Source of the DNA: Sinotaia quadrata
Lineage: Eukaryota > Mollusca > Gastropoda > Architaenioglossa > Viviparidae
DNA length: 64,000 nt
Assembly (NCBI GenBank): GCA_028829895.1
Contig: CM054182.1
Coordinates: 65,028,379-65,092,378 of the forward strand
Direction of reading: 5' to 3'
Position 1 is the first letter of the stretch, and the number at the start of each line of letters is the position of its first letter. Positions 5,620 to 60,340 of this stretch are shown here, one piece after another. The notes below the pieces were generated by a model, which was given only the letters and a program-made list of their open reading frames with translations, made no database searches and had not been told where the DNA came from. The position numbers and the translations under genes were made by a program.

Positions 5620-6985
5620 GTTGAAATTAACGACGACGCCCTTATGCAATATTCAATGAATAGCAAAACACGGTGATGAATATTTAATCGAATTATCCGA
5701 CAGGGATAATACTGGAGACAGTTGAGCAAATTGGGAATGGTTCGCGTAGTGTGTGAAATAGAAATAAATGGACGAGGCGAACGTAGTGGCTTGGGCAAAG
5801 GAATGGGATGTGGTGAATGTGTACACGAAACATGAACACAGTGACCTAGTTATCATGCTGTCAAAGAGTGCGTCGGTTTGTGGTTCTAGGCTGGTGTGAC
5901 AACAAAAACAGCAACGCACACAGAGTACAAGAATCAGGAACTGATGGTGGGATAAAGAAATCAATGAAAAATGCGTGGACTGAGATGCAGTATATTGTTG
6001 AAGATCTGGCACTAGTCCGTGAAAAAGACAGTGCAAAACACTCACGACTGAGTCGCGTTATTGACTCCAGAACAACAGCCGCTGACAGACAAAAACTTAG
6101 TTCATAATCAATAATTAATCAAGCTCTTTTCTTTTAGGAGTTTCAGTGTTGATTTTGATAGGTGAAAATTTACATAGCGTGAATTAACACTCAACGCTCG
6201 AAAACACGCATGCATACAAAAGTTTGCTTTCTCTTGTAGTCTCATTTAAAAAGCAAAACTTATAGTGGAAAAATAATATGTGCTCCGCATTCCTGACTTT
6301 GAAAAGACAACAGCAAGCACTTGCAGGCTTTTTGACAATAAATTAATTTAAGACAGCATTATCTTTCACAAACATGTCCACAGACACCTTTGATGAGTAG
6401 AAGAAAAGTTGAAGCAATTAAGCATCAATTAACAACTGAACTTTGAGAAAGATTACGTTCACTCACGCTGGCATACACGGCATCAATTCACACAATCAAA
6501 CACATATGTCCTCAGTAAACATACGAATTTACACAATACAACGGCTTCACACATGCATGCTGTAAAGGTATCAGTACATTTACACACATAGCATAAATTC
6601 ACGCATACATTTATATATGGCTATCTATAAACACAAAAGAAAACTTACACAAAACGATCATGATAAATGTGACAACATCAATGCACACATATGCAAGGCT
6701 TAAGTGCACGCATGAACACAATCGAGAACCTCAGTACAAACATGCACATACACCAGGCATCACTTGACAAGCACAAAGAATTAGTACACGCGTATATGTA
6801 ACAATACATCAATACACAGAACACAATCCCGTAACACATATGAACATACACAAAACATCAGCAAATTCAGTGCAAACATACACAAGGCATCATAGGACTA
6901 ATACAAAGAATTAGTACACACATACTTGTACATGCACAAGGCATAAGTATACGCACACAAATGTACACTAACATCAGCACACACG
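5620..6985. other. Intergenic
   Basis: No supportable gene. Open frames at 5653-6045 (minus) and 5868-6107 (plus) overlap each other, have no recognisable domain and lack clear splice sites. From about 6480 onward the sequence is rich in scattered CACA and ACATAC motifs leading into the CA microsatellite at about 6990-7063. Confidence 0.4.
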
Positions 6986-25300: not shown

Positions 25301-28300
25301 ACAATATATTCATAGTATCATTAACAACAATAAAGATAACACTTAATCAGTTACACTTACAGTCTCAGTATGTAAACTATACTTTATTGGACATCAGCAT
25401 TATTGTCTCTGATATTGTTAGTTTAACATGAAAGTTTCTCAAATTAGTATTATTTCCATAAAATGAAAAATGTATAGAGGATGTGGTGGAGTAAATTTGC
25501 CTATCCTGATTTCTAAATTTAAGTGTTGTATAAATTGTATAATGTCATAAGTGACCCAAAATTTGGGCACTCCTTATGATAGTATTTTTTGTAAGTGTTA
25601 AAGTTGGAAGTAAACAACTCAGGTGGAGAATGTGCTCGAAAACTGCTGATGCAATCCAAACCAGTTCTAACTGGATGAGCATTTTTTCTGACTAATAGCC
25701 TCACACTTTTCATGACAAATTTATCGAATTGGGATGGACCGAAAGTTATTTTCAGTTTTGTTGAAGAAAGTCTATATTCCAATCACTTTGATTTGAATTA
25801 AACTTGAGTCTGGTCATAAAGGCGATCGTTTGCTTATGGCAAGTTAACTGACTGATAAAGAAAGAATGGACTTAGAAATATTTCATACATGTTTGCTATT
25901 GATCTATGATCTGAACTGGAGAAATTTTTATGTAATTGAACCATTATTTCTAGGTTCACCAATTTGATTACATTGTACAGTATACTTGTGAATTTTGATT
26001 GATGCTATATTTCCTATGCTCTGTGCGTATCGGGTTAACGAAACTGTTGCAGGGTTTATAAGTTGAGAATGTTTGTAAGACTAAGAGAGAAAGGAGTTTT
26101 AGAAATGAAATATGCCTGAAGTTTAGTGCTGCCTTAATTTGACTTTCAATGAAAGAAGTGTGCCCTTTTTTTTTTGTTTGGTGCATTTGATCCGCTTTAG
26201 GCCACAGTGACTACTGTACTCTGCAGGATCAAGGTGTGTGTGTGTCCAACATTGTCATTGAACTTATCAGTAAATGTGTTGCTGTAAGTTGATTCCTGTG
26301 AATTCTGTTCCAGAGACAATACGGTGGAAAAATGAGGCTTGAGATAGGTCATGAGAATTCACAAAGATTATTTTGAACATTCCTCGTGGTGTGCTGAGTA
26401 GCATAGAGGAAAATTTGGGAACATTCCTCCTGAGGTGCTTGATAGCACAAGAGAAATTTGGGATGATTTTCCATGGTGTTCTTGGAGAGCATCAAAGATT
26501 CTAGAACAAAACACCCCTAGAAGGGGTATGTGGAACCATCATCTAAATAAAAAAGGTAGTTGCAAACCATGTGATTGTGAATATGTGCTAATGTCAGCAG
26601 CCCTCATTGAAAAAAGGATTGTGTACATTGAGTGATTGACTTTAATTGCTTCTCTATAACTCCGCACATTTCTATGATGTATGACATCCATGAACTTGAT
26701 TTTATATATATATAAGATAATTGACTGCTGATGTCTATGCTAGGATAAACTGAACGATTGTCTAGCATTAATTGATATTGTTGTGAAGTGATGTAAATGT
26801 CAACGCTCTTTTGATTATAATTTATATTCATATGCTGTGTATTTACTATTAAATTTTTTGACCTTAACATATTGATAACCATATGTTGGAGAAATAGGGG
26901 TGGATGAGGGCTCATTAAATACAGATTATAAGACAAATTTATTTTCTCCTTTGGTAAGAAGTTTTATTAGTTTGCTCTCTAATTAAAAGTTGCTTTGTTA
27001 ACATGCATGAAATATCTACTTGGTACAAAATGATATTTCAAATATAATAAGCCCAATGTCTAAGACAGTAAACAGTTATTTTTATTTGGCTCTTTCAAAT
27101 TCTATACTAAACATAAATCATGACATTAGCCACAAATGTCATGAATATTTTGAATTTAAAAATGGTTTGCAATTCTTCTCTGAGTGTGTCAATTGTCATT
27201 CCTTGTATACAACTTCTGAACACATTTACAGAGTTCACACAGTTATATGCTTTGCATATAAAAAATTATAAGGCATCACATATTAACTGTCTTAAAGGAA
27301 TGAGATACTTTAGCCATCACTGATCACGTCCCCAAGTAAATATTTAGTGGAGATGGACAGTTATATCAGTTTTTTTCCCCTAATAAGTAATATCCAAAAT
27401 ACAAAAGTATCCAAAATTAAATGTGCTGACTATCTAACCCAATTAAAACAATCAAACTAACCTGGGAATATGCCTCTGAATGAGGCATAACACTTTTGTG
27501 AGGCGTGGTACCCGACTTCAAGTCATTTCTGAAAACAAAATTTAATTTTTTAAAATATAATTTTATGAAGTTACTGAAACATCTAATGCCAAAATAATTG
27601 TAAAAAAAAATAAAGATGATGCATTTTGAAAGAAATAAATATAAAATATATTTTATCAAGCTAATACTTTTCATTTTTATTCTTATAGTTATACTAAACA
27701 TAGATAAACCTTTTATATACCATTAAGCAATCAAAACATTCTGATTTGAAAATTACAAAATTACAGTATTAATATTTATTAGTAATTAAAATGAGTGGTT
27801 GTAGATTTATTAAGTGTTAAGTTTTTTAAAGAGAGAAAAATAAGTTTTAAAATAACTGTTTTGAATTATATTTAAACCAATTCCCACCCAATAAACCATC
27901 ATTATAAAAAATATATATACATGTACATTAAAAGAAAACAGGTAGAAGATGATATAATTATTTTTTTTAAATATAAAAGCACACAAAATCTTTTTAATTT
28001 CTGTAATAGTGATTAGAAACCTAAATTATAAAATGTTTGACAATTTGTCTCAGCTTTGTTTTCCTACTTAATAAATTGCTGGATTTCAAAAGCAGTTTTT
28101 TCTTTGAAATAGTTTTAGTCGACTTTGTTGAATGTTAACTCTAATGGTTGCCTTGAACCTGAAATTATCTCATCTATATATTGAAATGTTTGGAACCAAT
28201 TCCAATAGTAAACATAAGCCAATGAGGTATATGCACACAAAAAATGTGAAACTAAAGGTGCCAATTATTAAAAGGAAACAATGTTTATGCATTCATCCAA

Positions 28301-49689: not shown

Positions 49690-50030
49690 GTATTTGTATT
49701 GAGGAAGTTCAATTTTTGTAATTAGAAATTCTGTAGTTGAGTTTTTCATACTCAGAAAATTCTTAAATTGCATTTTTATTTTGTACTTAGAAAGTATTTG
49801 GTTGGACTTTTCATGCTAAAAAAATTCTTCAATCATAAGTTGTTATTTAGGAAATTCTTTAGTGGAATTGTCACACTTAGTAGACTCTCGAGTTGAATTT
49901 TCCATACTCAGAACATTCTCTAAGTGTATTTTGGAAATAGGAACTTTCTTAATTGCATTTTCAAATGTAGAAGATTCCTAATGACATTTTTTAAATTCAT
50001 GCTTCAGAAAATTCTTTATCTGTATTTTTC
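49690..50030. repeat. Diverged AGAAAATTCTT repeat
   Basis: Six or more loosely similar units of about 55 bases share (T)ACT(C/T)AGAAAATTCTT and GAATTTTCATAC motifs. No gene is supported. Confidence 0.5.
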
Positions 50031-50106
50031 TGTGGTTCCATGTTCCATGTATCTGAACCCATATGTTGGGAGAAAGCAGTCACAGGTACAAATGTGTGAG
50101 CATGTA

Positions 50107-51345: not shown

Positions 51346-51680
51346 AAGAAAATCTATAATGACAATTAATACTTCTGAAGTTTGACCGAAATTCTGCAAT
51401 TATAAATATCTGAACTGGTGGGTTATAGAGATTAAGTAATTGAAGTGATAACACTATGTAACACAATTTTTGTTCCTGGCTTCTAAGTGTTATATTTCAG
51501 TTGCTTATGTCTAAAGTACGTGAAAAAATGACTTCATTAAGCACAAACTTTGCTTACACGACAACAGCACGAAGAAAACTTGTTTTTTGTGAAAATAGAA
51601 CGATTTTTTTTCATTTTCGTCATTATGATCAGGTAAAAACAAAAATTCACAAGGAATAGACAAACACAGTCGGAAACCAC

Positions 51681-52895
51681 TCAACAAGGTTCAGAAATGT
51701 GTAGATTTTCTAGATTTACGATTGTACTGTAAATCACTCTCTCGAAGTAGCCCCCAAATGTAGTCCCCATCATGTTTTCGTTATACTGTCCTTGGTAACG
51801 ACGTTCAAAGTTCAATATATCTTGATGAAAGCGCTCGCCTTGCTCCTCCGAGTAAACGCCCATGTTCTCCTTGAATTTGTCGAGATGCGAATCAAGGATA
51901 TGGACTTTCAGAGACATTCTGCATCCCATTGTGGCATAATTCTTTACGAGAGTCTGCACCAACTCCACATAGTTTTCAGCTTTGTGATTACCTAGGAAGC
52001 CCTGAACAACTGCAACGAAACTGCTCCAAGCTGCTCTCTCCGTCCTGTTCAACAGCTTTGCGAAATCCTCACATTCTATGATCTTCTTGATCTGTGGTCC
52101 GACGAATACACCAGCCTTGACCTTAGCCTCGGACAGCTTTGAAAAAAGATCTTGGAGGTATTGAAATGCTGCTGACTCCTTGTCAAGAGCAGTGACAAAT
52201 TGCTTAATGAGGCCTAACTTGATGTGCAGCGGTGGCATAAGCACTTTATGAGGTTCTATCAGCGGCGCCCACTTCACATTGCTCTTCCCAACAGAAAACT
52301 CGGTCCGTTGTGGCCAGTCCTTTGTGCAATAATGCGCCTTAGTGTCACGGCTGTCCCAGAGACAGAGGAAACAAGGACATTTCGTGAAACCTCCTTGAAT
52401 ACCCATGAGGAATGATACCATGTTGAAGTCATCGATGACCTCCCATCCGTAGTCGTCATACTTTAATACACTCAGCAACATTTTGACACTGGTGTAGTCC
52501 TCTTTGAGATGCACAGAGTGGGCCGTCGGGAGAGACGGGTAGTTGTTTCCATTGTGAAGCAACACGGTTTTGAGGCTCCGGGATGAACTGTCTATGAATA
52601 GGCGCCATTCAATAGGATTACATGCGATACCTATAGCCTGGAATAGACCGGCAACATCGTTGCAGAAGCACAGCCCATCACGCTGACTGAAGAAGTTGGA
52701 GAATCTTTGATGCCGCTTCCTCTGATCCGTGACTTGTACGCTATCATCAACCAAGTTCCACTGTTTGAGCCTGGATATCAGAAGCTCAGCATTCGATTTC
52801 GTAAGCCCGAGGTCCCTAATTAAATCGTTCACGTCTTTCTGGTTAGGGAAGTACGGTTTTCTATCCCCAACTTCATCTGCGGAATCGTAGTCCAT
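51681..52895 (-). CDS. Transposon-associated protein, likely RNase H-like
   Basis: A 404-aa intronless ORF. From memory it belongs to a family found in many copies in arthropod, cnidarian and mollusc genomes and usually annotated as uncharacterised. Visible features are FIDSS (D102), VIDDF (D155/D156), a tight cysteine cluster CPCFLCLWD (173-181), MPPLHIKLGL (220-229) and EEQGERFHQDI (350-360). An acidic-first, acidic-second, late-Glu layout with a Cys insert would fit a DDE-type transposase, but that is inference. Family members begin with a cysteine-rich N-terminal part that is missing here. The matching N-terminal piece (MASRDCLHLADSF, 52990 downward) is out of frame. The ATG at 52895 is the first in-frame Met. 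Confidence 0.75.
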   Translation of the reverse strand: MDYDSADEVGDRKPYFPNQKDVNDLIRDLGLTKSNAELLISRLKQWNLVDDSVQVTDQRKRHQRFSNFFSQRDGLCFCNDVAGLFQAIGIACNPIEWRLFIDSSSRSLKTVLLHNGNNYPSLPTAHSVHLKEDYTSVKMLLSVLKYDDYGWEVIDDFNMVSFLMGIQGGFTKCPCFLCLWDSRDTKAHYCTKDWPQRTEFSVGKSNVKWAPLIEPHKVLMPPLHIKLGLIKQFVTALDKESAAFQYLQDLFSKLSEAKVKAGVFVGPQIKKIIECEDFAKLLNRTERAAWSSFVAVVQGFLGNHKAENYVELVQTLVKNYATMGCRMSLKVHILDSHLDKFKENMGVYSEEQGERFHQDILNFERRYQGQYNENMMGTTFGGYFERVIYSTIVNLENLHISEPC

Positions 52896-53014
52896 ATCTC
52901 CAGTATCTGCCTCGCTATCTGACTTGCTGCTGTCTCCTGAAGATGGCCGATGAATGAATCAGCTAGATGCAAACAATCTCTTGATGCCATATCAAATAAA
53001 TAACTTCTCTTCAA
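52896..53014 (-). pseudogene. Out-of-frame N-terminus of the transposon ORF
   Basis: An ATG at 53014 opens MKRSYLFD followed by MASRDCLHLADSFI at 52990. After that the reading continues out of frame over the start of the 404-aa ORF. In the frame of the long ORF, the upstream bases read HRPSSGDSSKSDSEADTGD, an acidic linker typical of such proteins. The junction lies near 52948, in a TCATTCATC motif. It looks like an internal deletion, with frame change, of the cysteine-rich domain. An unseen splice is the alternative. Confidence 0.5.
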
Positions 53015-53079
53015 CTACGAATCGTTATCCTTTCAGTCTGCAATAACACGAATTGGAATCTTGGTTCGAGACACCTGTG

Positions 53080-53087
53080 CTTTTATA
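53080..53087 (-). promoter_or_regulatory. TATA box (TATAAAAG) of the transposon gene
   Basis: Read on the minus strand, TATAAAAG starts at 53087. An initiator-like CCAATTC has its A at 53054, 33 bases on, and the first ATG is at 53014. The heat-shock motif array begins 19 bases upstream of the box. Confidence 0.65.
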
Positions 53088-53105
53088 CTTGTACAGCTAC
53101 TTTTG

Positions 53106-53181
53106 GAACGTTCAAGAACGTTCTAGAAAGTTCTGAGTTTCTCGAAAGTTCTGGAAGTTTCTTGAACGTTCTAGAGTGTTC
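53106..53181 (-). promoter_or_regulatory. Heat shock element array, 13 perfect pentamers
   Basis: GAA and TTC alternate every five bases: GAA53106, TTC53111, GAA53116, TTC53121, GAA53126, TTC53131. After a two-base slip comes a second series: TTC53139, GAA53144, TTC53149, GAA53154, TTC53159, GAA53164, TTC53169. GAG53174, TTC53179 and GAG53184 follow in register. Three alternating pentamers suffice for an HSF trimer, so this could hold several. A further three-unit site lies at 53253-53265 and a two-unit site at 53315-53322. Confidence 0.85.
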
Positions 53182-53411
53182 AGGAGAATTGTAGAAACAT
53201 GTGGACAACTCTAGCAGTTCAGGGAGGAAGCTCGGCATTGAAAGCAAATCGAGAATTTTCTCGAACACACGCGATTTTCCAAATTTCAATGTCCCGGTCA
53301 CAGAAGCAAAGTTTTTCTGGAATAACAGCGATTCCCTTTCTGTTCTAGACCTAACGGATTAGGAAAACACACTTTCAACCCAGGAACAGAACAAAAGTGA
53401 AAATTTGTTAC

Positions 53412-53446
53412 ATAGTGTAATCTATTAACCCTGCTCATTACACTAT
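53412..53446. repeat. Inverted repeat at transposon right end
   Basis: ATAGTGTAAT (53412-53421) and ATTACACTAT (53437-53446) form a perfect 10-bp stem around a 15-base loop. Its inner arm is part of the right terminal repeat. Confidence 0.7.
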
Positions 53447-59755: not shown

Positions 59756-60024
59756 TTATTTATTTTATTTATAAATTTGAGATAATAGTTTATATAGAAA
59801 TATGTGCAGAAATGGAACTATTTTCAAGTCATTGTACATCCATTTCTTCACAATCCTGGAAAGTTATTGATGTTTCTGATCGTAAAATTTTGAGGGTCAT
59901 TTGAACATTTTTGTCACATTGTTAAATGAAACATAACAACAAAACAACAAAATAGGACCTATACACTTTCATTGCAGTCTAGCTAATCTCCTCAAAGTCA
60001 ACAATATGGAACAGTTAAGTAATG

Positions 60025-60340
60025 TGCCCAGAAGGAGTACGTTAGACATAAGAAAGAACATGACTTGTTGCAAACCACGTGCTTGTGAACACGCGCTAGT
60101 GTCAGCTGCCATCATTGAAAAGGTTAGGTACTTTGACTGTAATTATCTCTCTAAAAATCCAGTCTCATTTCTATGATGAATTATGTCTATGAATTTGGTT
60201 TTATATATATATAGTCTTGCACATATATTAAAGCCTTATGATGGAATAATAATGGATGGATTGGTCTCGTTAAATATAAATAAAAGACGAATTTTTATTA
60301 CTCCTTTAGTAAAAAAAATTCCACCTGCAGAAACATTATG
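60025..60340 (+). repeat. Dispersed repeat, copy B
   Basis: Same orientation and block order as 26525-26965: GTTGCAAACCACGTG, GCGCTAGTGTCAGCTGCC, CATTTCTATGATGAATTATG, TTTTATATATATATA, then TCGTTAAATATAAATAAAAG and CTCCTTTAGTAA. It lacks the internal ~150 bases present in copy A. Confidence 0.65.

Follow-up and report, generated by a model that had tools for sequence, protein, structure and literature searches.

The closest precedent for the element described here is provided by the HSF-1-driven Helitrons of Caenorhabditis. The promoter region of the Helitron1_CE Rep-helicase carries 14 heat-shock elements (HSEs), and the gene is up-regulated on heat shock (PMC6927752). Our element resembles these Helitrons in being a DNA transposon with an HSE cluster before its own gene, and in that the element holds the genome's dense HSE clusters. 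It differs in that Helitrons are rolling-circle elements, as opposed to the cut-and-paste Chapaev3 type, in the animal group concerned, and in that HSF dependence is here putative. The same source presents ONSEN of Arabidopsis as heat-activated and exploiting the host heat response; the present family would share this heat activation, which is putative here, but ONSEN is a plant copia LTR retrotransposon. In a fungus, the mobilisation of some elements was raised at 37 °C, and HSEs were noted in two LTRs (PMC12810828). In structure, the described relatives are the Merrow/Garfield Chapaev3 elements, which share with ours the CAC...GTG ends, a TWA duplication between A and T, two exons, and the C(2)C, LH and H(4)H motifs; Merrow_PM measures 2,451 bp, with exons of 78 and 484 aa (PMC4079192). 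The words heat, stress and promoter occur 0 times in PMC4079192, and no array is described under those words; a Chapaev3 element with an HSE array was likewise not found among the titles and abstract beginnings listed from the openly accessible part of PubMed Central. Should this family prove to be a second case, in a superfamily that is unrelated and moves horizontally, it would show the stacking of HSF sites to be a repeatable strategy, and would make testable both a link from temperature stress to transposon bursts and the titration of HSF by a transposon.

The window, that is, the whole stretch of 64,000 nucleotides of Sinotaia quadrata analysed in this study (contig CM054182.1, positions 65,028,379 to 65,092,378), contains one such element on the minus strand, with the following features.

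51449..51451, no strand: target-site duplication TAA, left (from the sequence; other copies alike)
51452..53417, minus strand (transposase gene): Chapaev3-like (Merrow/Garfield-type) DNA transposon, deletion derivative, 1,966 bp (terminal inverted repeats at both ends; same boundaries in other genomic copies)
51452..51490, plus strand: terminal inverted repeat on the 3' side of the gene (CACTATGTAACA exact at 51452-51463; extent by eye)
51681..52958, minus strand: truncated transposase frame, 425 codons, C-terminus frameshifted (list of open reading frames and comparison with relatives)
52829..52990, minus strand: short out-of-frame ORF of 53 aa that begins at the original start codon and arose through the internal deletion
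52950..52953, no strand: site of the 610-bp internal deletion (the BLAST alignment breaks at element position 1501, where L016 and L018 have 610 more bases)
53050..53056, minus strand: initiator-like CCAATTC, putative start A at 53054 (from the sequence)
53080..53087, minus strand: TATA box TATAAAAG (from the sequence)
53106..53196, minus strand: array of heat-shock elements in two registers, with 15 of its 18 pentamer positions perfect
53253..53265, minus strand: distal 3-unit heat-shock element (strict-chain scan of the window)
53369..53417, minus strand: terminal inverted repeat on the 5' side of the gene (CACTATGTAACA exact at 53406-53417; extent by eye)
53418..53420, no strand: target-site duplication TAA, right (from the sequence)

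Exact matches to CACTATGTAACA were found at only two places in the window, 51452 (plus) and 53406 (minus), with TAA flanking both sides, and the element reads CACTATG...CATAGTG at its ends, in agreement with the 5'-CAC...GTG-3' termini of Chapaev3. Flanks were counted by hand in the 18 loci with two ends. A matching TAA or TTA stood on both sides in 17 of these (L018 differs) as well as in the window, and 16 had an A before and a T after the duplication (L018 and L020 differ), corresponding to the 3-bp TWA duplication between A and T of Chapaev3. The preliminary description had taken the locus for a mobile element, which is supported. The residues C336/C339, L384-H385 and H493/H498 were invariant among 26 aligned relatives, the same columns being C196/C199, L244-H245 and H353/H358 in the window copy; in our own reading of the spacing notation of PMC4079192, they are the C(2)C, LH and H(4)H motifs of that paper. 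The aligned relatives also share conserved acidic columns (D263, D317 and E512/E515), which may include a DDE catalytic triad, and the transposase has an RNase H-like transposase fold of the Transib/RAG-like kind. Transib elements produce a 5-bp target-site duplication, and membership of Transib was rejected, despite this fold, on the 3-bp duplication. The gene has two exons, as in Merrow and Garfield: in L016 and L018, codon ~70 is followed by an intron of about 190 nt with GT and AG at its ends, and five separate exon-1 matches in the transposase search of the host genome begin at codon 1.

The transposase has a large family of relatives in animals: 2,346 of 5,250 candidate proteins scored E ≤ 0.001, the best being 94% identical, and those with names among the 120 listed belong to fish, sturgeon, frog, lamprey, tunicate, crustacean and insects. 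Lamprey, sturgeon and Cotesia are names shared by the listed relatives and PMC4079192, which serves only as a lead for clustering with Chapaev3. No Pfam family scored above the cut-off for the transposase, a PDB sequence search with it returned nothing below E 0.09, and no relatives were found in IMG/VR contigs, bacterial and archaeal genome contigs, phages or plasmids. Promoters of other species, sought in the protein databases via the frame reading through the promoter, were not found either. The element is a cut-and-paste transposon with Chapaev3 (Merrow/Garfield-type) features, within the CMC group.

The minus strand at 53050-53171 carries two strict GAA/TTC series, TATAAAAG and the initiator-like CCAATTC. 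By both reading and computation, we found a strict series of six alternating GAA/TTC units with exact 5-bp spacing at 53106-53133 and another of seven units at 53139-53171. The second series continues imperfectly but in register to 53196, with GAG at 53174, TTC at 53179, GAG at 53184, TTG at 53189 and GAA at 53194. The TATA box, at 53087-53080, lies 19 bases from the nearest GAA, and CCAATTC is at 53056-53050, with 33 bases between the first T of that box and its own A. The 13 perfect units (6 + 7), the TATA box and the spacing of CCAATTC had all been reported in the preliminary description and were confirmed. Its interpretation as the layout of a heat-shock promoter is also supported, the array comprising at least three alternating nGAAn units in a 5-bp register upstream of a TATA box. 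Besides the two series, the sole strict chain of at least three units in the window is the 3-unit one at 53253; of three other copies tested for this distal element, L012 and L018 have it, and L016 does not have it as three strict units. When the window was simulated 100 times with a first-order Markov model, chains of at least three units averaged 0.99 per window, and the longest strict chain had four units (in 3/100), as compared with the observed six and seven. Simple chance as the origin of the array was thereby ruled out. Elsewhere in the window, a short degenerate tandem repeat of AGAAAATTCT units at 49714-50036 is weakly HSE-like (4/9 units at 49906/49911).

In the host genome searched (984 Mb, 26 contigs), a promoter query of 181 bases gave 374 candidates, of which 40 were scored. 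The 39 places besides the window's own were 99% identical and spanned 183 bases, as against 181 in the window, and in 17 promoter-selected copies the two extra bases fell at the break between the series. We therefore regard this break as a 2-nt deletion in the window copy. The two-series layout given previously is thus present in the window copy but is not original, two nucleotides having been lost from an array otherwise in one register; the family form has one register of 19 positions, 15 of them perfect.

Fifteen of the 17 copies measured end to end were 1.95-2.00 kb long, and the remaining two, L016 and L018, were 2.56-2.57 kb. The 610-bp deletion in the window copy removes the greater part of exon 1, together with the intron and the beginning of exon 2. 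In comparison with relatives, the window transposase is missing its N-terminal part and is frameshifted at its C-terminus, and the first ATG of the gene opens a 53-residue frame out of phase with the transposase. Induction here would therefore give no normal transposase, and the earlier proposal of an ORF switched on by stress does not hold for the window copy, a deletion derivative that may at most be transcribed. The transposase search of the host genome gave 2,573 candidates, 77 of which were scored; in some of the 82 matches the second exon is uninterrupted. By hand count among the best-scoring rows only, 28 of the 42 rows spanning codons 144-562 had no stop. The truncated frame (51681-52958 in the window) is often stop-free in the common 1.97-kb deletion derivative. 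By analogy with the P-element KP, reportedly a truncated protein acting as a repressor, a possible role of the truncated protein would be repression.

The first 20 copies fetched had been picked by promoter identity and cannot show that the array is a family feature. We accordingly rejected the near-zero variation of their arrays as proof of constraint, since they were ranked by promoter identity and a sample not chosen by promoter decays neutrally. That sample consisted of 36 loci from the transposase search (16 long and 20 derivative), of which 34 were readable; L067 lacked a promoter match, and the piece for L075 covers the terminal inverted repeat only. All 34 carried the array, with 10-15 of 15 perfect units, and their longest strict chains had between 6 and 10 units. 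TATAAAA was present in 34/34 and TATAAAAG in 30/34, while CCAATTC was exact in 29/34 and changed or lost in the other five. The layout from array to TATA box and start site was fixed across copies. Other copies that lacked the array, or kept it out of register, had been named in advance as evidence against the proposal; we found it kept in 34/34, with small register-breaking deletions in single copies (2 bp in the window, 1 bp in L083, and 1 bp each at the array edge in L085 and L041). The larger deletions inside the array measured 20, 20 and 30 bp in this sample and 10 and 10 bp in a 22-copy sample; all five are multiples of 10 bp and thus remove whole unit pairs and keep the register. Deletions of 20-30 bp were seen in L062, L073 and L066, and the strict chains left in some copies reach 10 units, so that unit number differs between copies. 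In L009, a second element copy lies about 2.9 kb from the first (5703-6126), its array intact but for one spacer change, with a deletion in the leader.

Changes relative to the majority in the 34 copies amounted to 11/1497 in cores, 20/1593 in spacers and 127/11677 in the rest of the promoter piece (array versus rest, p = 0.77; core versus spacer, p = 0.15). The divergence is thus about 1%, that of a young burst. The 22-copy sample gave 16/990 in cores and 19/1056 in spacers (p = 0.86), although its search pattern pre-selects intact cores and so provides no test of core constraint. These data suggest that copies decay neutrally after insertion, single copies showing no sign of selection. In a comparison between the units of the family form, 5/57 positions in the GAA cores were off the majority, as compared with 18/38 flanking letters (Fisher p = 4.5e-5), although core matches were used to set the limits of the array, so that this result is favoured and the p value flattered. 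In the window copy, the corresponding figures were 3/54 and 16/36. Such uniformity of the cores is as expected if HSF contacts had been under selection during the active life of the element.

To place the array in its genomic context, we used a pattern of three consecutive GAANNTTC blocks (six units), which occurred at 682 places genome-wide, as compared with 2 for the reversed control. Among the first 50 of these places, all on chromosome C1, 49 were in the element as judged by matched letters (27 copies, 22 with both blocks, by our own count); 22 of the 27 copies were fetched, and they align to the element promoter. Arrays of this length had been described as rare, and outside the element we found just one among the first 50 listed places, in L044. 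Scaling from C1, we estimate that about 370 copies in the host genome bear at least one block, in agreement with the 374 candidates of the promoter query. Another stretch with GAACATTCC-type units is present in the window at 26375-26500 and in L044 (4800-4930), where it attains six strict units. By eye, the L044 stretch resembles the window at about 26402-26632 and 59937-60173, and it may be a dispersed repeat.

The host carries five intact hsp70 genes in one frame, these being the ones near full family length and without stops among 43 HSP70 matches. As in the element, HSE units precede a TATA box in their promoters, with TATAAA present in four of the five upstream pieces (941 bases). In these pieces, however, the longest strict chains had 2, 2, 2, 2 and 3 units, as compared with 7 in the element, and the best 19-position register held 3-7 perfect units, as compared with 15. 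Similarity between the element promoter and the five pieces did not exceed 23 bases (best E 0.07). The element array is thus longer than those at the five hsp70 genes and not visibly copied from them.

The array of this young transposon suggests an element switched on by heat or protein stress. In our preferred hypothesis, which we consider probable, the transposon carries its own heat-shock promoter, HSF would drive it under stress, and full-length copies would mobilise the family. This young multicopy family has kept the array, the TATA box and the initiator-like site, followed by a leader of about 64 nt and a transposase gene of two exons. Host HSF would trimerise under heat or proteotoxic stress, and its trimers would bind the array cooperatively, the 15 perfect units offering room for about five trimers. 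Bound HSF would then drive transcription from the TATA box, and full-length copies would make transposase, mobilising themselves and the many deletion derivatives. A derivative such as the window copy may still bind HSF and be transcribed, without yielding normal transposase.

The same promoter layout would be expected if HSF bound the array mainly for expression in the germ line or early embryo, with heat induction as a by-product. Transposons profit mainly from germ-line activity and HSF has roles in development, but an array exceeding those of the five hsp70 promoters would suit cooperative binding under stress, and we consider this explanation unlikely. The promoter might also derive from a heat-shock gene of an earlier host and have been brought in, after its capture, by horizontal transfer. 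Records P0007, P0010, P0017 and P0026, from fish, frog and crustacean, hold relatives of 72-80% identity, which suggests transfer between hosts, and Chapaev3 transfers are published (PMC4079192), whereas the five host hsp70 upstream pieces offer no match beyond the short one noted above. We give this origin little weight; if true, it would leave the working of the promoter unchanged.

Two further explanations dispense with HSF. As a neutral 10-bp minisatellite (palindromic GAACGTTCTA), HSE-like by chance, the array would merely have spread with the element; Tandem Repeats Finder indeed reports a 10-bp period, the larger deletions are multiples of 10 bp, as would also arise by slippage in a tandem repeat of 10 bp, and the decay of copies shows no preference for cores. 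It is hard to reconcile with this that the flanking letters have diverged between units and the cores have not, and that the array stands directly upstream of a TATA box and start codon and is kept family-wide, which makes a minisatellite improbable. The array lies about 220-310 bp inside one end of the element, and the CMC group includes the plant CACTA elements, whose subterminal repeats bind an element protein; it could on that basis be a subterminal repeat for the element's own transposase. We regard this as very unlikely, since the array is at one end only, with no GAA/TTC chain of at least two units in the last 330 bp of L016 and L018, and has exact GAA/TTC cores and a set spacing to the TATA box.

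With about 370 copies, the family would have built the longest HSF-binding arrays of its host, several thousand units in all and far more than at the hsp70 genes, which raises the idea of an HSF sink. That a stress-triggered element also forms a dispersed sink, which could damp or delay the host heat-shock response and make neighbouring genes heat-inducible, is a tentative proposal that we consider doubtful.

Several minor observations were made on the window and genome. Contigs C1-C8 (54-156 Mb) make up nearly all of the 984 Mb, and the host probably has about eight chromosomes. No Pfam family above the cut-off was obtained for six other frames of the window, ARAGORN reported no tRNA in it, and one window exon has three short homologues. 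At 2291-2903, a 29-bp unit is repeated in 21 copies with 100% identity, a minisatellite that is very recently expanded.
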